The notes below the pieces were generated by a model. It did not search any database and had not been told where the DNA came from. It saw only the letters and a program-made list of their open reading frames with translations. Positions 4,549 through 61,445 of a stretch of DNA of 64,000 nucleotides are shown here, piece by piece. Origin of the DNA: Medicago truncatula (taxonomy: Eukaryota > Streptophyta > Magnoliopsida > Fabales > Fabaceae). Each line of letters begins with the position of its first letter. Position 1 is the stretch's first letter. Location: contig NC_053044.1 of assembly GCF_003473485.1 (NCBI RefSeq), positions 50,694,091-50,758,090 of the forward strand, written 5' to 3'. A program made the position numbers and the translations under genes.

Positions 4549-4640
4549 CTTTCAGAGTGTAGTGAAGTGTTGCTATGAAAGAAAGAGGATGAGAAAGTTA
4601 GGGTTTGTGAATGAGTGAGAATTGGTGAATGGGTTTTCTT

Positions 4641-5615: not shown

Positions 5616-6052
5616 CGGAACCTATGTTGACAAGGACATTAGCACATCTATTTGTGGTAGGATTGGCAAATCTTGATTTTCCAAATCCATCTCCAGAAAT
5701 ATCATATCTTTTGAATAAGTTGGATCCCCGACACTTCTCATGTCCTACACAAGACAGGCAACGAACCACTATTTGAGAATCAACATAAACATCTAGTGCC
5801 TTATAGCTATGATCTCGTGCTAAAAAATAATTTTTGAAAGCAAACTTAAGGTGTTTCATTCATAATAATAGTAGCAGTATCTTTTGAATAAGTTGGATCC
5901 CCGACACTTCTCATGTCCTACACAAGACAGGCAACGAACCACTATTTGAGAATCAACATAAACATCTAGTGGCTTATAGCTATGATCTCGTGCTAAAAAA
6001 TAATTTTTGAAAGCAAACTTAAGGTGTTTCATTCATAATAATAGTAGCAGTA
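5600..6052 (-). pseudogene. Decayed LINE RNase H fragment in a 173-bp tandem duplication
   Basis: The minus-strand frame 5859-5584 contains DVYVDSQIVV and NRCANVLVNIGSE, which resemble the RNase H domain end of plant non-LTR retrotransposons (NRCADxLANxG). A segment is duplicated head to tail with a period of 173 bp (about 5706-5878 and 5879-6051), and the copies are nearly identical. The fragment is non-autonomous. Confidence 0.6.
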
Positions 6053-35413: not shown

Positions 35414-37154
35414 TCATGGGTCCTCATTGTCATGACCATTCTCTTTATCCTCATCTTTGTCTTCATCCTGATCTGCACTCCTTGAGGCTGCCACCAAACT
35501 ACTAGCATGTTGGTTTGCCACAGAGCTAACTTTCTTCACATAGTCAATAAGTCTATACTTCTGCAGCCATTTCATCAACCAGAAACATTCAGTGAAAGAA
35601 ATGATTTAACTGAGATAAATTAAAGCGTAAAGGACTAGAAAATTGCCCGGAGATGGCTCGCCACGTCCTCCCTTGTAATATTTTCAACATTCATCAAACC
35701 AAGAATCTTTTCAGGTACAGCCTCTGCCAGTAAAACAACATTAACATGAGACTCACTCAAGTTCAGTAATGAAACACTTCATGACACGGCGTAAATTTGA
35801 GTGATAATTGAGAAATGAAATTTATACCATGTAGCACCTATCATCATAAGTTTTTTTCAACGTCAGATTGAAAATAAATTAAAAAAACACTTTGATAATG
35901 TAAAATGAGAAATAAAAATCGGTCAAGCTCGAGGAAATTGATAGGATATAAAAATTGTTTGTGTTGCGGACAGAGTGGAGAACATACTGTCAATGCCTAA
36001 CTGATTAACAGCAGCAACAAATTTGTGGTGCAGCTCCACAGACCAAACAGACTGGGACTTCTTCTGAGCTGATAGGTCCTCATTGTCCTTCTTCTTCCGA
36101 ATTACATGCTGCCAAATGGTCTTTAGCTCCTGTAATCTCACAGGTTTCACCAGAAAATCAGAGGCACCATGGAAAACTGCCTTCATCACTAGCTCATTAT
36201 CGCTAGATTCAGACAACACTGAAATAAAACAACAAACGTTCACCAAACAATCATTGATTAATAATTATATGAATAAATGAGAGTGAAAATGAAGAAACAA
36301 AGCAAAGATGAAGAACTGAAGATTACAGAACAGATCCCCCCACTTACTTACGACGACCGGAAGGTCCGTCTCAAGTTCCACAAGTTCAAGCAGCTTAAGT
36401 CCATCCATGTCAGGCAGGTGCACATCAGCGATTACCAGGTCAAACTTGTCTTTGTTTTCTCGCAACATAGTCAATGCCGTTTTTGCTTGACTAGTTGTCG
36501 TTACTGCAATCCCCAACCATACATAAACATCTTAAGAAGAAGCAAAATGTGTATAAATTGTTTCTATATACTATAACAGTGAGTTTGTGAAACTAACTCA
36601 AACATACTATGACTTTGAAGTCTTTGATCCAAAATCACTACTCTTTTCATCAACACAACATCTTTTTGATTTACTAGTTAGATTTGATTGATTCCAAAGT
36701 CCAAATGAATTCAAAGTAAGTTCTTTGTTTGAATTTCTATAATTGCAAATACACATTTATGAACACTATTCAGGTCATATCTAAACAATGTGGGACTAAA
36801 TTAACCACCTCAATCTCAATGCCAAGGCAGCAAATGCCGCAATTAGGCGGCTAGGGACGGACCTATGCAGAATTTCCAACAAACTAAAATCATATCTAAA
36901 TCAATCAAAGAATTACCGTATCTCTCTGCATATACATATCCTTTACTTATCAATTATGATCATCATGCATTATACACATAAATTGGACATAAAGTATGAA
37001 TAAATCAAACAAAAATGGGCAGAAAAAAGAAAAGAAGCAGACCGTGGTATTGACATGATCGGAGACGAGTTTCTAAATCCGAGAGATGAGTGGAATCGCC
37101 GTCGACGGCGAGAACACGCATTCCGATTGGAAACCGGTCACTGGAGTCGTCCAT
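35414..37154 (-). CDS. Short type-B response regulator A (receiver plus GARP/Myb domain)
   Basis: Cytokinin-phosphorelay transcription factor type, truncated after the DNA-binding domain. Five coding exons: 37154-37043, 36503-36348, 36218-35988, 35723-35647, 35560-35414; 240 residues. The receiver (residues 13-124) keeps the phosphoacceptor Asp64 (DLVIADVHLPDMDG) and Lys114 (LVKPV). The acidic pair reads D18-G19 (VLAVDGDSTHL) instead of D-D. One extra Val codon sits before M90 (LPVVVM), compared with LPVIM in copy B. The GARP domain is [40 protein letters not shown] and KYRL. The tail is short and acidic (DQDEDKDEDKENGHDNEDP) and lacks the long glutamine-rich activation region of normal type-B members. 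Intron 4 seems to start with GC (CGG|GCAATT at 35646); if unspliced the protein ends HLRAIF. It may be a gene in decay or an activation-deficient regulator. Confidence 0.78.
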
Positions 37155-37269
37155 AATTCTCTCTTCTCTACTACGCGCAATGAAACAGAGGAAATAAGTA
37201 AAGGTTATTGAGAAATTATATTTGTACAACTATTTTTTTGACAATTTTAGACAATTTTCTCTCTCATAC

Positions 37270-41200: not shown

Positions 41201-42536
41201 TTATCGGGAGTTATGGCCAAACTGCCCGTTCAGACCAGCTGGAGTGTTCAGATTACCAACTATCCCAGCAGGTGAAAAGGATCTGATAGTATTATTGTGA
41301 AAATGTCCAGAACTATCCATTCTTTTCAGAAAGAGTCTATACTTCTGCAGCCATTTCATAAACTGGAAACATTCAGCGAAAAAATTACTTAACTTATATA
41401 AATTAAAGTGTAAAGGACTGGAAAAATGCCTGGAGATGGGTTGCCACGTCTTCCCTTGTAATATTTTCAACATTCATCAAATCAAAAATCTTTTTGGGTA
41501 CAGCCTCTGCCAGTAAAACAACATTAACATTAGACTTAAACTCGAGTTCAGTAATGGAATACTTCATGACTTGACTAAAACATAAACCAGATATTCAAAA
41601 ATAATTTAATAGTTTAAAATGAGAAATAAAATTCGGTAAAGCTCGAGGAAATTGATAGGATATAAAAATAGTTCTAGTGTTGCAGAGAGAGTGAAGAACA
41701 TACTGTCAACTCCTAACTGATTAACAGTTTCAAGAAACTTGCGGTGCAGCTCCACAGACCAAACAAACTGGGACTCCTTATTCCGAATTACATGCTGCCA
41801 AATGTTCCTTAGCTCCTCCAATCTCACAGGTTTCAGCAGAAAATCACGGGCACCGTGGGAAATTGCCTTCATCACCAGCTCCGTTTCACCATGTGCAGAC
41901 AACACTGAAATCAAACAATTTATAACAACAATCATTGATTAATAATTATATAAATAAATGAGAGTGAAAATGAAGAAACAGAACAAAGATGAAGAGCTGA
42001 AAATTATAAAACAGATCCCCCCAACTTACTTATGACAGGAAGATCCATTTCAAGTCCTACAAGTTCCAGCAGCTTGAGTCCATCCATGTCAGGCATGTGA
42101 ACTTCAGCGATTACCAGGTCAAACATGTCTATGTTTTCTTGCAACATAGTCAATGCAGTTATTGCTTCACTAGTTGTGGTTACTGCAATCCCAAGTCAAA
42201 AATAAATAAGATAGATATTATTCAGAACGAGCAAAGTACACTTTGCATGTATATCCAGGACTAGAACAGAGCAATTGTGAAATACTTGAAAAACAAAAAT
42301 TCTAACCATGTAGAAATAGAGAGATTCTGAAATCCAAGCAATAACAGGTACAAAGTATAATAAAATAATTAACCATATCTCTCGGCACATAAATTTGACA
42401 TAAAGTATAAAAAAAGAAGCAGACCGTGGTATTGACATGATCGGAGGAGAGTTTCCAAAAGCAAGAGAGAAGTAGGATCATCGTCAACGGCAAGAACACG
42501 CATTCCGATGGGAAACCGATCACTGAAATCATCCAT
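41201..42536 (-). CDS. Short type-B response regulator B (phosphoacceptor Asp to Glu)
   Basis: Paralog of the regulator at 35414-37154. Five coding exons: 42536-42425, 42182-42030, 41904-41704, 41506-41430, 41344-41201; 228 residues. The acidic pair is intact (AVDDDPT, D18-D19) and so is Lys113 (LLKPV). The phosphoacceptor position 64 is Glu ([14 protein letters not shown], codon GAA). It lacks ten codons between receiver and GARP domain that copy A has. The GARP domain reads [40 protein letters not shown] and [12 protein letters not shown], a canonical match to type-B DNA-binding domains. The protein ends about 40 residues later (NGQFGHNSR) without an activation domain. The intron 4 donor is CAG|GCATTT at 41429, GC rather than GT. 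Glu may mimic phosphorylation, as suggested for pseudo-response regulators. Confidence 0.8.
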
Positions 42537-43560
42537 TATTCTCTCTTCTCTACTATGCACAAACCACTTACTCACAACGTAAACTATGCAACTGAGCAAA
42601 TAAATAAAGATTGTTTTTCGTGGACTATCTACGCATAAAGAATAATGGGAAACTTTCTTTGTAAACACTTTTATTTCTTTTATCTTTGTTGTGGGGTTCA
42701 GGTCGGTCCTTGTTTAAAAAGAATTTGTAGATACATCCTTTAATTTGTTTAATTGATATCACATTTTATATTCATAAAGGCTAACTAAGTTAATTGTATT
42801 GGTAATTTTAAAAAAAAAAGTTAATTGCATTGGTAAAAAAAAAGTTAATTGTAGTACAAGTGACATGTAAGTGAGCATTTCTTTCTTTTTGCTTTACTAG
42901 TTTACATGGATCTCCTAGATCAAAACCACGGTTTCGCTTGAAAAAGAATAACATGATACCAATTAAATTAATTAAAGGACATATTTGCACCATATTTTTT
43001 AATAAGAGACTGATATGAACAAAAAATAAAGATTAGGGACAAAAAGGTGTTTAAGTTTTTTTTTAATACTCTTCCTATTAATGATTTTTTTTTACGAAAA
43101 CAAAACGATAGTCAATGATTCATATTGATAAAGTACATCATTCAAAATCGCGAAAAATATAAAAAATAAATATGTGAACAAACTCACAAGTCACAACATT
43201 CAAATTAATAACATGACAAAATGCTTACAAACAATAATATAATAAAATTAAAGTGATTGCAATATTTTGTCTCTGAATCTGCAACATTAACACCCAAATC
43301 ATTAATTAAATAGCCGATTTTTCAATAAGAATCAGATGACCACCACAACAAAACAAAAATTTGTCACATACAATAGAAGAATTTGCGAATGGTAGTTAAC
43401 CACCGTAGATTGCGAACGACAGTTATTATCATTGGAGGTAAAATGGTAAATTTCGTGTGCCGTGCGAGCAATTTAAAAAGCCTAAAGAGCACAAGCAGTC
43501 ATTGGCCCAAAGAGTACGACCCAATAAGTCAGCGGCGTCACGCAAACCCAATACATATAT
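42537..43560. other. Intergenic, nothing recognised
   Basis: Upstream of regulator B; A/T runs only. Composition becomes more GC-rich from about 43400 towards the telo-box promoter. Confidence 0.45.
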
Positions 43561-43599
43561 AGAAACGAGCACTAGCCTCCACTCCAGTGCTATCCATCT

Positions 43600-43629
43600 A
43601 TAGCAACTTCCCTAAACCCTAACCCTAAC
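43600..43629 (+). promoter_or_regulatory. Telo-box promoter element
   Basis: AAACCCTAACCCTAA at 43614-43628 lies directly before an ATG at 43630. GGCCCAAA and ACCCAATA words lie 70-130 bp upstream and TATATAGAAA lies at about 43556. Telo-boxes of this kind are common just upstream of starts in plant ribosomal-protein and cell-growth genes. It suggests that a true gene start survives here. Confidence 0.65.
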
Positions 43630-43818
43630 ATGAGAAAACCATCTCTGTTAAGACATGATCCGAGTCCAACCTCTCCTCTGCGAAAATCTCCATCTTTGTT
43701 CGATGACACTTTTGAATATGTTTTTCATCATTTGGACAAAGTGCAAGTTTTAACGACGTCTTTAGTGTTAACAAATCTCAAAATGAGAATGCAATCAGAT
43801 AAGTCACTTATGTTCTAA
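43630..43818 (+). CDS. Truncated hypothetical protein at a telo-box promoter
   Basis: An open frame of 62 codons starts right behind the telo-box: MRKPSLLRHDPSPTSPLRKS, then FDDTFEYVFHHLDKVQVL. I do not recognise the family. Its second half is the left arm of a long inverted repeat, and the stop codon lies in the loop region. It may be the first exon of a gene whose body has been lost or replaced by the inverted duplication. Translation is unproven. Confidence 0.4.
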   Translation: MRKPSLLRHDPSPTSPLRKSPSLFDDTFEYVFHHLDKVQVLTTSLVLTNLKMRMQSDKSLMF

Positions 43819-43928
43819 AAGTTTGAGATTTGTCAAGTGACTTATCTGATTGCATTCTCATTTTGAGATTTGTTAACACTAAAGTCGTCGTTCAAACTTG
43901 CATTTCTTCCAAATGATGAAAAACATAT
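43716..43928. repeat. Long near-perfect hairpin (95-nt arms, 24-nt loop)
   Basis: The left arm 43716-43810 is repeated inverted at 43835-43928 with only a handful of mismatches; the loop 43811-43834 is short. A transcript from the telo-box promoter on the plus strand would fold into a stem of about 94 bp. Such inverted duplications can be sources of small RNAs or young MIRNA genes. A third partial copy (TCAGATAAGTCACTTA) lies at 43962-43977. Confidence 0.88.
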
Positions 43929-44384
43929 TTAAACTTTTATCTTATGTCTTATATTGGTTCAGATAAGTCACTTAACCAATAAACGACGATGTTTTTCCTA
44001 TGATACATAAGTTCTAAAAGTTCGATGATCTTTTTTCCTATGATTTTGTGCAAAAGTTATACGCTTCTCCCTTTAGTTTGATCTTTTTTTTTAAAAAACA
44101 TTTGCAGATATGCCAAATAATTAAGCTTAGCTTTAGTAGTAGTTCTCAAATATATTGTTGATTAAATTACATATAACTTGTGCATTTGTTGATTCTGAAT
44201 GAGTTTGAAATTTGAACTTTATGATCAAAATGTCATATATCTTTGCTTTCTTTAGTCACATGCCTTGTACTTGACATCTTATGTGCTGTGCATGTTTGGG
44301 AAATTGTATATTAATTTCACATCTAAGTTATTAGCCATCTTGTGTCTGATCAAGGTTAAGGATTGAGGAATTACTTTAAACTTT

Positions 44385-44760
44385 TGCAGACATCTTAACT
44401 TTGTAGGGAAGGCTCTAATGGAAGATGTCATCTCAATCCTTATGATTGCTTTCCGTTGTCAATTGAGTCAACTTGTAGCTACACGTGTTGACACTTGACT
44501 GGGTGGCATGATCAGACCTGGACCAGATTTCAATCTAGAAAGAGCTTCCGCATGAGGTCTCAGAGAAAGTTAAATTGCTCTGTCGTGACATTCAGCAGCA
44601 TGATGGGGAAAATGATGACACTCATGTAGTGCATGCTGCTTTCTCACTAAAACAGATCACTAGAATACACAAAGCATTGGACTCAGACAAGTGAGTTTGT
44701 TAAACTTGTTTTAAATGAGTTCAACATTACTTTAGACGAAGCTGGTGCACTCCATTAGAC
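44385..44760 (+). pseudogene. NPR3/NPR4-like gene fragment (broken)
   Basis: The plus-strand text reads RHLNFVGKALMEDVISILMI and CQLSQLVATRV, stops at TGA, continues with SEKVKLL-like sequence and RIHKALDSD, shifts frame, and resumes as EFVKLVLNEFNITLDEAGAL. This order fits the region between the BTB domain and the first ankyrin repeats of NPR1-family salicylic-acid receptors, nearest NPR3/NPR4 by memory. At least one stop and one frameshift are present. A MITE at 44776 truncates it. Non-functional. Confidence 0.72.
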
Positions 44761-44775
44761 AATGGCCTACTAACC

Positions 44776-45375
44776 CTAAGAGTGTGTTTGGATGGAGTAA
44801 TTGAGAATGAGAAATTTTGAAGAATTTAAAATTTTAAGTAATTTAAATGATTCATTTAAATTGCTTTCATTCTTAAATATTATTGTTTGGATGGAGAAAT
44901 AAAAACAAATATTGTCATAATTTTTGGACAACTTTTATAAATTTTAATTTTTTTGGGCCAAATTTGAAAAATAAAATTAGGGGTCAATTTGAAAATTTCA
45001 AAAATTTTGAGGGGTCAATTTGCAATTTTTTTTAAATTTATTGGGGTCAAATTGGAAAATTTGAGGGCCAAAATGCAAAATTTTAACAATGAAGAATTTT
45101 GAAATTCTTTAAATTTAACTTGAATAAAATACTTCATAAATTTCCATCATTTTGAAAATTCTTCAAATTATTATTCAAACAATGGAATTCATATCAAAGT
45201 ATTTGAATTCCCTCAAAATATTCCCTCATCCAAACACACTCTAAGGGAAATATTTTGAGGGAATTCAGCTACTTTGAGGTGAATTCTATTGTTTGAATCA
45301 ACCTCAAAATAATTGAATTCCCTCAAAACATTACATTACCTCAAAATATTCTCTCATCCAAACACACTCTAAGGT
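44776..45375. mobile_element. Nested foldback MITEs with GTGTGTTTGGATGGAG ends
   Basis: The left end CTAAGAGTGTGTTTGGATGG at 44777 is matched by inverted ends TCATCCAAACACACTCTAAG at about 45226-45245 and again at 45355-45374. The second half (45241-45375) is itself a foldback with GGGAATTC and GAATTCCC. It looks like one element with an inserted or duplicated relative. Non-coding. Confidence 0.8.
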
Positions 45376-45990
45376 TGTTTATGAAGCACCCCCAATGGTC
45401 GACACGTGGCACCTCACTTAAGGGATGTTACCCTACGTGTGTCACGTCAGCGAAGATTAAGTCAAAAGCGGCCTTGGGGGCCAAAATTGCCAAAGATCCA
45501 ATACATAGGGGGCTGTTTTGTATTTTAATTAGTTAGGGGACCAAAATCGCAACTTTTAAAAAGATAGGGGGTCAAAAGTGCAATTAAACCTTGATTTTAT
45601 TTTACTCTATGAAGAAAAAAATGATCAGCTTTGAAGACTCTCAAATCCAAGTTCAAATCGAGATTTATGATATAAGTAAGTATGCTAATTTAAAAGATGG
45701 ATGTTGGTATCAAATTAAGAAAATAATAGGTTAATGAAATTATTTAAACTATGTGATTTTATCAATCTATTTTCTGACTATTGCATATGTTACAAATATA
45801 ATAGATCGTTGTCTTCAAAATAATATTAAATGGATCATTGTCAATCGTCACTCCGTAATGTTAATATTAATTATATTTTATAATATCTTCCTGTTTTAAT
45901 AATAGATCGTTTACATATTTTCCTATCAACCCAACTATTTGTATATCTAAAATAATTAGAATTGTAATATTTGCATGGTAGGAGGAACAT
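45376..45990. other. Intergenic; dispersed repeat fragment
   Basis: GGGGACCAAAATCGCAACTT and GGGGGTCAAAAGTGCAATTA words at about 45535-45590 belong to the same dispersed family as 16660-16800. No gene. Confidence 0.45.
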
Positions 45991-46600
45991 GTTCTTTGTA
46001 GCTTAATATTATTTAGCTCAATTCTGTTGTGGATGGTTTTGGAAACATGATCCAAGACAAGGTTATTCGCTAAAAAGAGTTTAAAATATGATGATGATCT
46101 TTGATGCTCAGCAAAATCAAGCACCTTTCACAAACATCATCTAGAATAAAGTGGTGTCCCTAAGAGTTTCTATTTTGCGTGGAGATTGATGAATAAAAGA
46201 ATTTCAACAAAGGATAATTTGGTTTGACGTGGAGCTCTTCATCTAGCGTTGTTGTTATGCTCAGGCGGGTGTGGGAAGGAAAAATTAGTTAATTATTTGT
46301 TTTTGAATTATGACCTTTTTGGAAGCGTTTCAGCTTCCATTATGCAGTGGTTGAGGATATCTAGCATGCACCACTCTGACATTGGCATGCATGTTGTTCG
46401 GTTTGGTGGTGCCAATTTTTTTAGGAAGGATATTTGTCTTTATTTTCATATTATTTAGTTGGCTACTGGATCATTTGGAAGGAGCGTAACATGCTGAGAT
46501 TTCAAAACAAAGAGTCATCTATCGCTAAGTTGATCGACATAGTGAAACTTCATTCTTATGATTTTAACATGTTTTTAACAAGCTAAGCAAAACAAACCAA
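45990..46600 (+). pseudogene. LINE zinc-binding (zf-RVT) fragment
   Basis: Broken plus-strand frames show GYSLKR, then FTNIIWNKVVSLRVSIFAWR and LMNKRISTKDNLV, the usual start of the zf-RVT region of plant LINEs (VWKxxxPxKVxxFxWR). Several stops follow. A relic. Confidence 0.72.
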
Positions 46601-49139
46601 ACCACTTATGATTTTATTTTTGGATCAAATGTATTTTCTTACCTCAAAACAAAACTAGACCGCACCGCACCGCACGCACCTAGTTGCTAGACTTGCCAAG
46701 GTTTCAATATCATTCAGTGGAGAACACATGTCATTTCCCTCTCATAGAAGAGCAGTCCAAATTGTGGAAGACAATTGCAAAAGCTAGGAACCGAATAAGG
46801 ACATGCTCATGGCTAGAAACCAAAGAAGGGCCAAGCATAAGAGAATAAGTTTTCAGAACCGGGGAAAGTGTTTTAGAATGGCCCACTTCGTTCCCTTTTT
46901 TCCCTATTAAAACCAAATCCTATGGCTGTGTGTGGATACGACTAGCTTGACCGAACCTCGAAAGGCCAAAATCAACTGTACCAGGATCATGTAGCACCGC
47001 AAGATTGTGTTATGCAACACTTTTTTGGGTTAGACACTCTTATTCCTTAAATGGTGCCTATCTGTCATTGCTTGCTGACACGTGAGTTTCAAACAATCAT
47101 AAAATTATACTCCATACAGTTTGTGTACATACTACATAACAGAGAAGAAAATAACAAAACTAAATTGCTCCATGTAGAATTCTTGAATACTTGTACCAAA
47201 AAAAAGAAAAAAATCTTGAATACCCACAAGAAAAGGTGGGTGACGATATTTCTTAGGCAAAGTCAGTCTAAATATTAAATTCATTTTCTTACATCAACAT
47301 ACTTCTTTCATTTTCATTAGGATAATATTTGTAACATAAGTTAGACTTAAATCTAAAACATAGGATTTGCCAGCTTTGATGGTCTCCACTAAGGGTATAT
47401 GTTTGTCTTCAAATAAAAGTATTAATCATATAGTTTTAACAAAATTACTTTGTGGTTCTATAAATTTGAAAATTTTTTTAAATTGATCTTTTGATTTTTT
47501 TTTTTTTGTATTGATTATTTTCTGGATTGGTCCAACGCCCAGACACACATACAGGTTCAATTATACTAGATTATCTTTAGTCTTGAATCCTCACCTACCA
47601 TTTTATAACACTTCAACGGTTAATAACTGTCATCAGAATCAGGTATTGATGAGTCTTGAACCCCATCACTCCCAACAACTCCTTTTATGCGCCTATAAAA
47701 AGCATCTTTCGTCGTAATACAAGGTACACAACTTTTATCAATTTAATATCTTTTATTCTTTATTATATTCCTAACTTGAGCATCAAAGTGCTTGCAAGTA
47801 CAACCCCTAACATTAATCTCGACAACAACTACTCAATCTCGACCAACTTATCTTGATCATATAAGACCATGTTCCTTATATTTCATTATCTTGTTATGCA
47901 TGCCATTTTAATATTGAAATAAATCACACAAATATATTAGATTCATCCCCTTGATTTCTTCTTTCACTTCTTCATCTTTAAATCTAAATTTCCAAAGACC
48001 AAAATCCTATGACTTGAGAAGATGACTTAATGAGTATAAGTATTTCTTTAAGTCTCAAATATTTTTGCCTCATAGATATCATGTTTGGGAGAAAAATAGA
48101 AGAAGACTTAATGGGTATAAATACTACTTTAAACCTTTTCTTTGTCTATCTGTTTTACATTGTTTTAATGTTAAAATATTTAAATATAATGATATAAAGT
48201 TATTATTGATAAATGACATAAAATTATTTGATTAGTTACATTTAATTTTTTTTTTTAAAAAGCTGTTGTGTTAAAGGGATCGAGTGTTTATTAAATTTCA
48301 TTATTAAAAAAATTATAAATAAATTATGTGTGAATGTATAGCTCTTTTTTGTGTTTATAAAAATTTGTTTCATTTAAAAATTAAACTCATAATATTTTGA
48401 ACATTTCATCATTTGATAAAACTTATTAATCATTTAAATTTAATTATTTTATCAAATATAAAGCCCATTTACCAAGAGTAAATTTTTCAACTCTAATTCC
48501 CCGATTGCTATCCCATCCACCTCTCACAGTCTCACTAACTCTAAGTGCATAATTACAAAGTGTATGAGAAAGGTAAGCACTAGTATGTTGGTGACGATAG
48601 AATAGAAAGAAGAGTGCGTTATTGAGCTGGATATCACCAAAGGTACAAAGAAAATAATGTGACTTGTGACAGGGTAAGCATTAGTATCCCCATCGGATTA
48701 TCACCTTGCCAAATTTTAAAATATAATTTTTTTTCTTTATATTGACAGTGTAACACATGCATTCGTTAAAATCATACCGTTCAAAATATTAAATGTATCA
48801 TCGACAGTGTAATATTTTGTTGCAGTGAATCATATATTTCAGTAGACACTTATAAAGATTAATTCTGAGTCCAACATATTCAATTAAAATTATCTCTTAA
48901 AAAAACTTAAGTGTAACTTTGATTGAATACATATATACAGAATTTTACATGAAAATTATTCTTTTAAAACATGATAAATGTTATATGTCTGTTTTGTTGT
49001 CTAACAATATATTTATATATGATGTATATAAAACCGATAACATGCTTTTTATGTATTTGAGCTTATCAATATAGAAGGAGATTCACAACGTTTAAAATTT
49101 TGATACCCGTTGTCTGAGAGTATTATTAAAAGTTTTTTT
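46601..49139. other. Intergenic; includes repeat of regulator B 3' flank
   Basis: About 46728-46830 resembles 40960-41070 (GAAGAGCA, TTGTGGAAGA and GGACATGCTCAT words in order). The rest is AT-rich, with no supported gene. Confidence 0.45.
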
Positions 49140-49775
49140 TTGTTGGTAAAGTCGTCATTTATAAATGGGATGATGTTTGTTTAGGAAATGAGTTTGGAGG
49201 TTTGAGGTGCGCATGATTGGAGAATTTAATTTGTCATTTTTAGGGAAGGGGGTGTTAGAGGTTGTATGTGGATCATAATAGTTTGCGCTTAAAGGTGTGA
49301 GTGATGAGGTATGGGGCGGAAGGTGGATGTGTTAGGGATTGAGGGTGTTTATGATCAATGTGGCGGAGACAAATAGTTGGAATTTGTGGGGAGGAGGGAT
49401 GGCAGTGGGTGGGTCGTTTGACAATAATTTGGTGCAAGTTGGGAACAATGGGACTAGAACTTTTTTATGGTCGGATAGGTGAATGGATAGAGTGCTTTAT
49501 GTGATAGGTTTAGGCAGTTGTACGAGTTAGCAGAGAATCAGTGGATAACAGTATCAGAGATGTATGCTTTAGCCTGGAAGATTGGGGGAGAAGCTTGGAA
49601 TTATTCCAGAAACATTGAATGTGTGTGTTCATTGGTCGGGGTTTACAAGAAAGTATGAATCATTTATTTTTGGGATGTGATGTGTTTGGGATCATCTGCA
49701 TAATTGAAGCAATGGGTAAGTATTCAATCAGTAATTCCTTCCCATTTGGCGGCAAATTTGAAGTACTTTAGCGCC
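49140..49775 (+). pseudogene. LINE fragment (RT end to zf-RVT), heavily decayed
   Basis: Plus-strand frames with many stops still read FGGLRCA, LYVDHNSLRLKV, RYGAEGGC and LWSDR, typical of LINE text (GGLGVRR, LLxDxxSLWxKVLxARYG, FWxDxW). The end reads YESFIFG-type sequence of the zinc-binding region. Confidence 0.6.
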
Positions 49776-49975
49776 TTAGGCGGGTTCTTAAAAATAATTT
49801 GTTATTACCTACATATAATTTAGCTAGCTTCTCTAAGTGTCATCTCGAAAGAAGAAAATTAACATTGTTTTCAGCAAAAGGCGGAGTCATCGAACAATTT
49901 TTTGAGATAGTTAAATGGTTATCATTTTGTTGTTGGTGATTTAAAGAGAAAAAAAAGATCATAGTTTATCTCTTG

Positions 49976-50145
49976 ATCTTTTTTTAAACGTATCTTTTGA
50001 TCTTAATCATGGACTAATCTTATCATATTTTTGGGATTAGTTCCTTAGCTTTTGATAGGGTTTAGGGTTTTGATCTTAATCATTGGTGAACTAATCTTGC
50101 CATGTATTTGAGATTAGTTTCTTAGCTTTTGATCTTTCTTAACTA
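49976..50145. repeat. Direct repeat of about 75 bp
   Basis: TTTTGATCTTAATCAT, then ACTAATCTT and TTCCTTAGCTTTTGAT, occur twice in order (about 49994-50058 and 50070-50137). No function assigned. Confidence 0.7.
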
Positions 50146-50877
50146 TCGATATTCTATTGTAAATAACTTATGTGTTGTGCGTTGTTCCTTTGCACTTAAG
50201 AGAGAGATATGAACAAAAATTAACAAAGGCATCCAAAGGCACCGAAAACAAAGATACTGCTACCCCTATTAGGACTTAGGAATAACATCTCTTGTGTTTA
50301 ATATATTTTATTTTTGCTTGTTTTGTTAAAAAATTTAAATGTCAAAAAAGATTTCTTACATTGTCTCAAAATGGTGCAACACTTTTAGCAAAAATAAAAA
50401 TAAAAATGGTGCGACACTTTGCAATTTCATGGACAATATATGAAAATCGGCCAATACATGAACAACAAAACCAAAGGTTGTTGAAACATATTTTCGACAA
50501 TTTGTTACAATAATCCAACCACCGACGTCAACCATGTGAAAATGTTGTTCCGATCAATTAACGAAACAAACAAAACAAACCTTAATCGTCACACATCCTT
50601 TTCCATCATTCATCTCAACCCCCTGGTTCTCCCCCAGCAATCTTATTTTTTCCCCCAATCCCCATTAATTAAAATAGTAAAATATTCCTATTTTAATAGT
50701 ATTTTGCTTTTTCAAAAAAGAAACTGAGAAAAAAGAAGAAAAGAGAGAGAAAAAAAGTAGCAGAAAGAAGAAGAGTAACAACAACAACAACTACAACAGA
50801 TCCATATAAATAGGCGCGCATATCTCAGAATTATCAACGAACGGAAGCTCCACCGGAAACCGGCTTAAGTGGTAAAA
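50146..50877. promoter_or_regulatory. NRAMP upstream region and 5' leader
   Basis: An A/G-rich tract (50720-50790) precedes TATAAATAGG at about 50805, a good TATA box about 70 bp before the ATG at 50878. The leader between them is short. No gene lies upstream within 1 kb. Confidence 0.55.
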
Positions 50878-53800
50878 ATGAGTGGTCCATCGAGAGAAGA
50901 GAATTCAAAGGAAGAGGTAAAAGAAGAAGATGAAGGTAACCGGTTACTGGAAGTTAACGTTGAAGGTGAATCTTCATCGGAAGAAGAAGCAGCGTATGAA
51001 TCCGGCGAGAAAATCGTGGTGGTGGATTTCGAATTCGGCACCGTCGACGATTCAACCGTTCCACCTTTTTCATGGAAGAAGCTATGGATGTTCACAGGAC
51101 CAGGATTCTTGATGAGTATAGCATTTTTGGATCCTGGGAATTTGGAAGGTGATCTACAAGCAGGAGCGATTGCAGGGTATTCATTGCTATGGTTGTTGAT
51201 GTGGGCTACTTTGATGGGATTGTTGATTCAATCGCTATCGGCGAGGGTTGGTGTTGCTACTGGACGTCATCTTGCTGAGCTTTGTAAAGAGGAGTATCCG
51301 AATTGGGCGAGATATGTGCTTTGGTTTATGGCTGAACTTGCTTTGATTGGTGCTGATATTCAAGAGGTTATTGGTAGTGCTATTGCTATTCAGATTCTTA
51401 GTCGTGGTGTTTTGCCTCTTTGGGCTGGTGTTCTTATTACTGCTTCTGATTGGTATGCCTATCATCACTCTTTTCATTCAATTATGCATCTTTTAAGGAA
51501 TTGTTTTACTCAATTATGGGATTGAGGTTTTGTTATTACTGAAATTTAAGTTTTTTTTTTTTTTTGGATAAACAGCTTAGTTAAGTGCTTATCAGGTAAG
51601 TGATTATGTATAAGTTATTTTTATCACGGAAGTTAATATAAAGACAAACATTTTCATAAGCTATCATGGAAGAATTTATGTTAGTAGAAAAGTTCAAATA
51701 ATTCAATCTAAACAGGCGATCTAGTGGAGGAGCTTAGACCATTTTTTTCATTTTGGAGTGGTATTGTTGATTTTTCTTACCTTGTTCATAACTAGAATTC
51801 GTAGGGATTCGGTGACTTTGGTGGCGGGAAAGTCACAAAGTCACCGTGACTTTAGTGTATTTTGGTGTATTTCATGAAAGAGAAATGATAGATAATATGA
51901 GAGAGAGCGATAGCCACAGTTGCAACGACTTTCCTGCCTTAAAGGTAGCAAATCCTGACCCGGATTTTCATGAGCTGCAACTTGCAAGGAAAGTTTGGAT
52001 TGATGGAGTTGTTATGAGTAGAGAACTGAAATCGAATTTGTCGGACTAAGTTTCCTGTTAGTACCTGGCTGTTAACTGATTTTAGTTATTAGTCTACAAC
52101 TATAAAAAAGTTTTAACTGGATGAGGCTAATTTGCTTTACATACTTCAAATATTTTTTATGTATCTCGATTCTAGTTTCTATGTAACACATTTCAGTTAA
52201 GTTCAGCCAGTAATTAGATACCTTACTCTTGACTATATTCAAAACTCGAACTTGTATGGTTGCATATGCTTTGACGTTATGTTTTGCTTTGGCATGACAA
52301 CAACATGTTTCCTTAGCTTACTATATTTTTGAACTTGTGAACACCTTTATGTTATCAACAACAAAAGTTCTGAAATTTAATGGTTTGGATTAAATTTCTG
52401 TATGGAAGTTAGTAGTAGAAACATGTATACTTCAATATTTTTGAAGCTTCATTTCTTGATTTCAATTTTCTGACTCTATTGTTATTGTCTTCAGTTTATT
52501 GACTTGGAGCCATCCCACTTTCATGTTTAAACACCTAACTGTGCTTTACTCTCTCTGTTGTCGTGCAGCTTTTTCTTTCTATTTCTTGAAAACTACGGAG
52601 TGAGGAAGTTGGAAGCTGCTTTTGCAGTTCTCATAGCTACCATGGCTCTTTCGTTTGCCTGGATGTTTGGTGACGCACAACCTAGTGGAAAAGAGCTTGT
52701 GAGGGGTAAATTTTGTCTTTATCGTGTAATTGAACCACTTTGTTTTTGGAAAGGTATCTCTCCCTATAATCCACTGGCATAACCTGTGTTTGTTCCTTCT
52801 GGTAGGTATTTTGATTCCAAGACTTAGCTCAAAAACGATTCATCAGGCTGTGGGCGTTGTGGGTTGTGTAATTATGCCTCACAATGTATTTCTACATTCT
52901 GCTTTAGTGCAGTCAAGGAAGATTGATCCCAATAAGAAAGGTCGGGTGCAAGAGGCTCTTAATTACTATAATATTGAGTCCACAGTTGCACTTTCAGTCA
53001 CCTTCATGATCAATCTGTTTGTCACAACAGTTTTTGCTAAGGGTTTTTATGGTACAAAGCAGGCAAATAGCATAGGATTAGTAAATGCAGGGCAATATCT
53101 TGAGGAGAAATATGGAGGAGGACTCTTCCCTATTCTTTATATATGGGGAATTGGGTTACTGGCGGCCGGACAAAGTAGCACTATCACTGGCACATATGCT
53201 GGGCAATTCATAATGGGGGGTTTCCTAAACCTTCGATTAAAGAAATGGTTGAGAGCATTGATCACTCGGAGTTGTGCAATTGTGCCAACTATAATTGTAG
53301 CTATTGTTTATAACAGGTCAGAAGCCTCATTGGATGTTTTGAATGAATGGCTCAATGTGCTTCAGTCCATACAAATTCCCTTTGCATTGATTCCCCTCCT
53401 CACATTAGTCTCCAAAGAGCGTATCATGGGGTCCTTTAAGGTTGGGCCTGTTCTTGAGGTGAGTTGATCATGATGTTTCTTCATTTCCGTAACTGTTAAT
53501 TGTTAGATCTCTGAACTCTAAAGCAACTTATGCCATGGAATAAAGTTTTTTTTTTTTTTTTTTTATCTTGTTAGATTTTTTTACAACTCAATGACTTAGT
53601 GATTAGGAAAGGAAAATAAATTTTTCGTATGTTTTATTTTCTCTGCAGATAGATTAACTAGCAGAATGATTTTAATCTGAAAATCAAATATTAATATTTT
53701 TAAGATGCTTATTGGCGCTTCAATCAACAATCTATGCTTGTTTTCTGGGTGAAATGGAAATAGAACCGTATTAATATTTAAAAGACCGTGTCAGGCTTGA

Positions 53801-59269: not shown

Positions 59270-61445
59270 ACACTGTGTTTGGTAGAGGTGATTTATGACA
59301 GAGAGAAATAGATGAGAGAGAGAGATACAAGAGAAATGCTACATTCACCGTGTTTGGTTGAGAAGAGAAATAGAGAAGAGAGAGACAAAATAGATGGGTC
59401 CCACCACTTTTAGCTCTCTTCTCTCATATGCGAAGAAAGAGTGATGAAAGTGTTTTTTTTCCTTACTTTTCCATTTTTACCATCGTCACTGTCGATTGTT
59501 TCCTTTCTCATAACTTCATGTTAACAATATTAAATTTACGTACATTTTAGTTGAGAAAATTAAATGCATTTAGCTAATTAAAAATAAAAGATTAGATCAA
59601 ATTATAGAAAAAATGGGAAATTTTTTACGGTAATAAAAAGGGAACATAAAACTTAGTTATGCTTGCTAAACAGGTCTGGAGATTTCAGGTTAACCCTAGT
59701 GCTCTGGTTTCAAAATGCTACTAGGCTAAATATTATCCCAACACTGACATTTTACAGGCTACTATAGGATCTAATCCTAGTTTTGCTTGGAGGAGCATTT
59801 ATAACTCAAAATGGATTATTCAAAAAGGGTCCTGCTGGAGGATTGGTAATGGTCAGAATGTCAATATATGGGCAGATAATTGGATCCTCTCTCACCATAA
59901 TTTTAAAATTATCTCCCACTCTAGAGTCAACTCAGATTTAAGTATGGTTAAAGATCTTATTGATCATGAGAATAAGGAATGGAAAATTGATGTCCTTATT
60001 AACAATTTTTTGGCTATTGATATTCCAGCCATAGAACAGATTTCCATCATTAATACGAATCATAAAGATGAGTTAATGTGGATGTTTGAGCCTAAAGGGG
60101 GTTACACTGTCAAGAGTGGTTACACAGCCATTCAAACCTGGAAATCCAGAACAAATACATCTCCTACAACCAGTTTCAGTGATAATAAACTATGGAAGAA
60201 ACTTTGAAACCTTCATACCATACCTAGACATAAAAATTTATTATGGCGCATCTTGACTAACTCTTTACCTATCAGAAGCGAGTTGGAAAAAAGGGGTGTC
60301 AAATGTTCTCCCCTCTACCCAAGATGTAACATCAAAGTTGAGATCCTAGAACATGTCTTTATGACATGCCAGCACATCTCCAGAACCTGGTTTGGCTCTG
60401 CTTTAAATTTAAAAATCTTGGAGCAACCAATATCTAATTTATCAGATTGGATTGCTCATTCCATCCTTAATCTCAAGGAGGAAGTGAATATTCAAATAGC
60501 GTCCATTTTATACAATATTTGGCAAGCTCGGAATCAAGCTATTTTTGATGAAAAGTTCATACCTGAAGAGACAATCATAACTCGTTCCAGCTGCTGCATC
60601 AGTGAATTTCTCGCTGCCAACAATCCCGATCCAACTCAGATTGATTTGATCCCAAATCTTCCATCTAAACAACAACGCAAGACCCATCATAAATGGATTC
60701 CTCCAGCTCCGAACTACCTTAAAGCCAACAGCGACGCGAATCTCCAAGCTCTAGGATGGTGGGGTTTAGGAGCAGTGGTTCGAAATGATGAAGGTTTAGT
60801 AATGGCATCTGCTTCGTGGAGAATGAAGGGATCTGAAGATGTTATACTAGCCGAAACTTTTGCTCTTTATCGCACTATTGATTTGGCTCTTGATTGTGGT
60901 TTCAGAAGGATAATGTTTGAGGTAGATAACGAACAGTTGGTTCGTCTGATTCATAATGACAATAGTGAAGATAGATCTTATCTAGGAAAGCTTATAATAT
61001 GAAATCCGGTCTCTCCAATCAAAGTTTGACATGTGGTCTCTTAAGCATATAGATAAAATTGTAATGGGCTGGCCCATAAAATGGCTCAGATTGCCCACTC
61101 CGATCCAAACAAAATATGGATGGAGGAGGTGCCTTTTGAGGCCACTAAGGTGTATTTTAGTGATATTTCCAATTAATAATATTCAGTCTTTTATTCCAAA
61201 AAAAAAAAATCATATAAAAATCTTAAAAGATTGTACTTAGTGTAAATATATTAATTTTTAATAAAAGGATATTTTTGTCTTTTTACAAATTAAACACGCT
61301 TCTCTCTCTCATATTTCTCTTCTCTTTGTTTTAAACCAAACAATACCTCAAATCTACTCTATTTCTCATTTATTTTTCTCTTCATATAATCTCTCTCACC
61401 TATTTCTCTCTTTTCACTTTCTTTTCGCACCCAAACACACCCTTA
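59270..61445. mobile_element. Foldback element interrupted by a LINE
   Basis: The left part has GTGTTTGGTAGAGGTGA and AGAGAGAAATAGATGAGAGA, and again GTGTTTGGTTGAGAAGAGAA. The right part (61300-61445) has the inverse: CTCTCACCTATTTCTCTCTT and ACCCAAACACACCCTTA. The LINE tail at 59650-61209 lies between the arms, so it probably inserted into the MITE. Confidence 0.65.
59650..61209 (+). pseudogene. 5'-truncated LINE: zf-RVT and RNase H domain with poly(A)
   Basis: The plus strand reads AKQVWRFQVNPSALV, SFAWRSIYNSKWIIQKGSCW, then the zf-RVT region (GGYTVKSGYTAI, RHKNLLWRILTNSLPIRSEL, EHVFMTC). The RNase H domain follows in the 249-codon frame 60253-61002. Its catalytic acids seem present: D in ANSDAN, E in ILAETFAL and D in EVDNEQ. 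Stops at about 59728 and 60205 and a break after LGKLII kill the frame. A run of A at about 61199-61209 marks the 3' end. The 5' part, with endonuclease and reverse transcriptase, is missing. Confidence 0.82.

Follow-up and report, generated by a model that had tools for sequence, protein, structure and literature searches.

The window, a 64,000-nucleotide (64-kb) stretch of Medicago truncatula DNA, holds several gene copies and mobile-element traces around the locus described here. Several diverged cyclin gene copies lie within 2000-30000 (Cyclin_N was detected in the one copy scanned); by our reading they are A-type. Minus-strand telo-boxes at 4598, 11374 and 11595 fall within this cyclin-copy region, and a nearly perfect 173-bp tandem duplication (99% matches) occupies 5705-6052. 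Tandem minus-strand copies of a response-regulator gene, 82-89% identical in three blocks, are found at 35550-37180 and 41334-42562; their Response_reg matches score below the curated cut-off, and we read the gene as a type-B ARR. Retroelement-like frames at 59725-61002, which we read as LINE-like, carry zf-RVT and RVT_3 in the second frame and are without a Pfam match in the first.

The locus itself opens with a set of promoter motifs. A single site II motif (TGGGCY) lies on the minus strand at 43504-43509, the sole one within 43300-43640, and is followed on the plus strand by TATATA at 43556-43561, a candidate TATA box, and by a double telo-box, AAACCCTAACCCTAA, at 43614-43628, with an ATG just 3′ of it at 43630. 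The 14-nt telo-box form AACCCTAACCCTAA occurs once in the 64-kb window. From the position of TATATA at 43556, transcription would be expected to start some 25-35 nt further 3′, and because this is the sole TATATA within 43400-43640, the telo-box more likely sits in the probable 5′ UTR of the transcript than in the promoter proper. The motif set is that of a telo-box promoter, with AAACCCTA in the 5′ UTR or near the predicted start and a single site II motif upstream. According to the portion of PMC3022908 available to us, most telo-boxes of translation-machinery genes are at most 50 nt away from the start site, and the site II motifs associated with telo-boxes often number at least two in these genes; the promoter at this locus resembles that layout, but with one site II motif. 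A tRNA under the telo-box promoter was sought with ARAGORN and an Rfam-listed snoRNA at gathering score, and none was found.

The ATG is followed by an inverted repeat with arms of 99 nt each at 43711-43809 (plus strand) and 43835-43933 (minus strand), located by inverted-repeat detection and alignment. The arms are 94% complementary and enclose a 25-nt loop (43810-43834, plus strand) that is largely built of local copies. They align without gaps, with the right arm identical to the left at 93 of 99 positions; all six differences are confined to the outer 49 nt, and the inner 50 stem positions are identical between arms. An earlier note on this DNA had placed a telo-box promoter just before an ATG, which the motif positions given above bear out, and beyond it a 94-bp hairpin (43716-43810 and 43835-43928); that hairpin is real and nearly perfect, and is slightly larger than had been described. 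RNA folding of 43690-43950 yielded -144.9 kcal/mol, compared to a mean of -46.24 kcal/mol for shuffled sequences (SD 4.35; z = -22.68), and none of 200 shuffles was as stable. A longer stretch, 43588-44060, folds into a single long stem with flanking short helices (-181.6 kcal/mol, a value without shuffle control). When the inverted pairs of the 64-kb window were listed with a minimum length of 35 nt and a maximum separation of 1500 bp, the hairpin was the top entry among the best 25 of 37 pairs; the second-ranked pair in this set was longer and poorer (107 nt, 72%), and many of the entries represented one AT-repeat pair. Plant annotation practice expects a MIRNA precursor to fold back within ~300 nt and its arms to form a well-paired duplex, and 43711-43933 has the form of such a precursor, being 223 nt long with well-paired arms. 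A foldback artefact of sequencing is unlikely, because the arms are not identical (6 of 99 positions differ). No third whole copy of an arm was found in the 64-kb window (BLAST, E 1e-3). Exact arm words were absent from viral contigs (37 letters) and prokaryote contigs (28 letters), as expected for plant sequence, and 15-letter arm words had no occurrence in published text (CC-licensed literature only).

A 62-codon open frame on the plus strand (43630-43818) begins at the ATG, spans the whole left arm and reaches its stop within the loop (43816-43818). Its length is weak evidence of a gene, because the two strands of the window together have 2569 ATGs, counting nested ones and those of real genes, and 84 of these start frames of 62 codons or more. 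In 100-bp steps, the GC content ranges from 0.42 to 0.49 across 43400-43699 and from 0.26 to 0.32 across 43700-44199, and the drop near 43700 therefore marks the approximate end of the gene-like stretch. All six differences between the arms are nonsynonymous, one of them creating an in-frame stop in one arm; with 80% of possible changes being nonsynonymous, six of six has a chance of 0.26. The arms show no sign of protein constraint, yet six sites cannot exclude it. The 62-codon frame had no match in PDB and none in Pfam (limit E 10, although HMMER filters drop most matches above ~0.1), and a coding unit here, or an F-box-like protein, was rejected for want of a Pfam match. The open frame is likely to consist of a gene-start relic (the first ~25 codons) continued by non-coding sequence.

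The next coding trace after the hairpin is an NPR1-like exon fragment at ~44390-44758, broken over three frames. Its three pieces, when linked by X, matched NPR1 in PDB (E = 1.7e-5); the middle piece on its own had no NPR1 match in PDB, and the linked pieces had no Pfam match at E 0.01. By eye, the fragment has an intact-looking splice acceptor at its start and is cut off by a downstream MITE-like element (44774-45374), which has ends GAGTGTGTTTGGATG, TAA on both sides and internal copies of the end sequence. The region 45326-45518 resembles Rfam family MIR2619, which comes from Medicago, at 51 bits (below the gathering score of 113); by eye the similarity reflects a dispersed repeat common to both, which would point to a transposon origin of this miRNA family. 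Further downstream, 45400-51000 has 14 open frames of 55 aa or longer on the plus strand; 11 were scanned, and among these only an NRAMP frame at 50869 passed a Pfam cut-off. On content alone, the NPR1-like exon, the telo-boxes and the NRAMP, cyclin and weak response-regulator matches make a plant host most likely, and the MIR2619 resemblance makes a legume likely.

The sequence of the hairpin and its right flank is rich in short copies of its own surroundings. The arm tip TCAGATAAGTCACTTA, whose first copy is at 43795-43810, has an extra forward copy at 43959-43974 (plus strand); the loop word GTTCTAAAAGTT (43812-43823) has a second copy at 44011-44022 (plus strand); and a further loop word, 43822-43833, is the reverse complement of 43771-43782 in the left arm. 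Between the end of the first tip copy and the end of the second (43811-43974; 164 bp), 137 bp are copied from within ~300 bp as successive blocks of 12 (forward), 12 (inverted), 99 (inverted, 93/99) and 16 nt (forward), two of which overlap by 2; the other 27 bp are left unexplained by such copies, and 25 of them form one block at 43934-43958. Local direct repeats were enriched, with 5 at the locus compared to a mean of 0.85 in 319 control windows of equal length. Five or more were found in 9 of these 319 windows, of which one overlaps the locus, seven coincide with tandem arrays or with the MITE-like element downstream, and one (from 40401) falls on neither; a direct repeat of at least 16 nt was held by 35 of the 319. 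The copy mosaic of 43811-43974 fits serial template switching. Our tentative best explanation, which we put forward as the leading one at somewhat short of even confidence, is that the relic 5′ end of a telo-box gene of housekeeping type contains or adjoins a local inverted duplication of fairly recent date. Template switching during replication, with more than one switch, would have copied local sequence into the hairpin, and the later exons of the gene against which the duplication would have fallen were not found here; the ancestral order of events at the locus is a guess. At a substitution rate of 1e-8 per site and year, uncalibrated here, the 6 differences in 99 positions would mean an age of about 3 million years. 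The confinement of all six to the outer 49 nt has P = 0.012, although the true chance is higher than this because the boundary was chosen after viewing the data. As to why the inner 50 bp are identical, the candidates are conversion, a second switch, selection and chance.

Alternatively, and as a real if less favored possibility, the first exon of the telo-box gene may have received a non-autonomous transposon of foldback or MITE-like type, corresponding to 43707-44019 (or 43711-43933). Two plus-strand copies of the 9-bp word GTTCGATGA, at 43698-43706 and 44020-44028, bracket the structure as a direct repeat and could be a target-site duplication, of a length known from Mutator-like elements; any siRNAs would then belong to transposon silencing. 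The repeat has 4 G/C, and a shared 9-mer containing four or more G/C letters turned up at 10 of 423 control positions, although shared words of length 9 or above, whatever their composition, turned up at 83 of 400. The fall in GC content occurs at the same place (in 100-bp steps), joining the sequence at the repeat keeps the frame open over the 63 codons examined, and ~840 bp separate the right arm from the start of the downstream MITE-like element. However, the repeat is 4 bp from the left arm and 86 bp from the right arm, the ends of the bracketed stretch match poorly by eye, and there is no second copy in the 64-kb window. In a MITE, inverted repeats form the termini and the target-site duplication abuts them, which is not the arrangement here. 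For an insertion bounded precisely by the two arms, which was also considered, no convincing target-site duplication could be seen by eye.

An inverted duplication of a real gene start, with the telo-box promoter of the parent gene retained and MIRNA or siRNAs directed in trans against the parent family, appears unlikely. The promoter motifs and ATG beside the hairpin, and the open frame that spans the left arm, would agree with such an origin, and there are precedents: in the sections of PMC1790633 available to us, 16 Arabidopsis foldbacks (by the authors' count >30% of 48 non-conserved families) share an origin with genes, and computational evidence is given that MIR163 formed together with the promoter of its donor. 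Against it stand the absence of any sign of protein constraint in arms whose differences are nonsynonymous throughout (0.26 by chance), and the absence of any parent gene of the arms from the 64-kb window (BLAST, E 1e-3). Potential targets in trans were sought as ungapped 21-mer matches in the rest of the window, and the best of them (10 matches, without a chance control) have 4 mismatches. The earlier note's proposal that the arms derive from the open frame is therefore unproven, since the arms carry no sign of protein constraint (six of six changes nonsynonymous, one a stop) and the frame is without Pfam or PDB match. Its broader reading, of a new siRNA or MIRNA locus, holds as far as the layout is concerned, a promoter followed by an inverted duplication being consistent with the cases described in that part of PMC1790633; an origin from a coding gene start is unsupported. 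Rfam miRNA matches on the stem also speak against this origin, and against a known miRNA, all of them scoring below gathering (best 63.2 bits versus 101). These matches seem to be driven by pairing, because the stem attracts matches from several unrelated families, in some cases on both strands. No curated Rfam miRNA family matched anywhere in the window at gathering score, which is not required of a new family. Finally, an untranscribed and functionless relic is improbable. In its favor, the surroundings are debris (the frame-broken NPR1-like exon and the MITE-like element) and no gene body was recognized downstream; against it, the promoter motifs have an intact appearance and the stem is free of mismatches over its inner 50 bp.

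Under the local template-switch duplication that we prefer, the locus may have small-RNA potential. If the telo-box promoter still fires, the transcript would fold into a stem of ~99 bp, and by analogy with known pathways this stem would be diced mainly by DCL4, DCL2 and DCL3 into 21-, 22- and 24-nt siRNAs, a proto-MIRNA state. Such siRNAs would act mostly on their own locus, because no other complementary gene is known. In the excerpts of PMC10004981 and PMC1790633 at hand, long near-perfect hairpins are processed in this manner, by DCL4, DCL2 and DCL3 into siRNAs of these three sizes, until mutations turn them into DCL1 substrates, and the latter source describes DCL1 as acting poorly on perfectly paired dsRNA. 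A bolder version, in which a telo-box-driven template-switch stem is a newborn small-RNA gene at the siRNA-to-miRNA stage, its inner 50 bp kept identical as the source of a functional small RNA that acts on the gene family to which the promoter belongs, strikes us as very doubtful. New MIRNA and siRNA loci of plants are known to arise from inverted duplications beside live promoters; if the hairpin is transcribed, the first steps in the life of such a locus (dicer use and target choice) would be traceable at one plant locus, together with its mutational origin in template switching.

The hairpin is an already known kind of structure, an inverted duplication beside promoter motifs. It shares with plant MITEs and foldback transposons that it is short, AT-rich, able to fold back and bracketed by a direct repeat, and differs from them in that its arms lie off the ends of the bracketed stretch and in being single-copy in 64 kb. 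Compared to young MIRNA foldbacks, its stem is nearly perfect, and no parent gene of its arms was found within the 64 kb. A long, well-paired foldback with promoter motifs close upstream, as a local inverted duplication would be expected to give, is likewise a feature of MIR822 and MIR839, described as young and DCL4-processed in the available text of PMC10004981, and of MIR161 and MIR163, which arose by inverted duplication according to the part of PMC1790633 consulted. With regard to mutational origin, the portion of PMC8794818 available reports patterns consistent with template switching at human microRNA and at rRNA stems, and describes MIR633 of monkeys and apes as a hairpin born by a template switch, with a later inversion of the loop in baboons. 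MIR633 and the present hairpin both combine a reverse-complement copy beside its source with further local rearrangement of the loop; the hairpin described here differs in belonging to a plant locus and in needing several switches.
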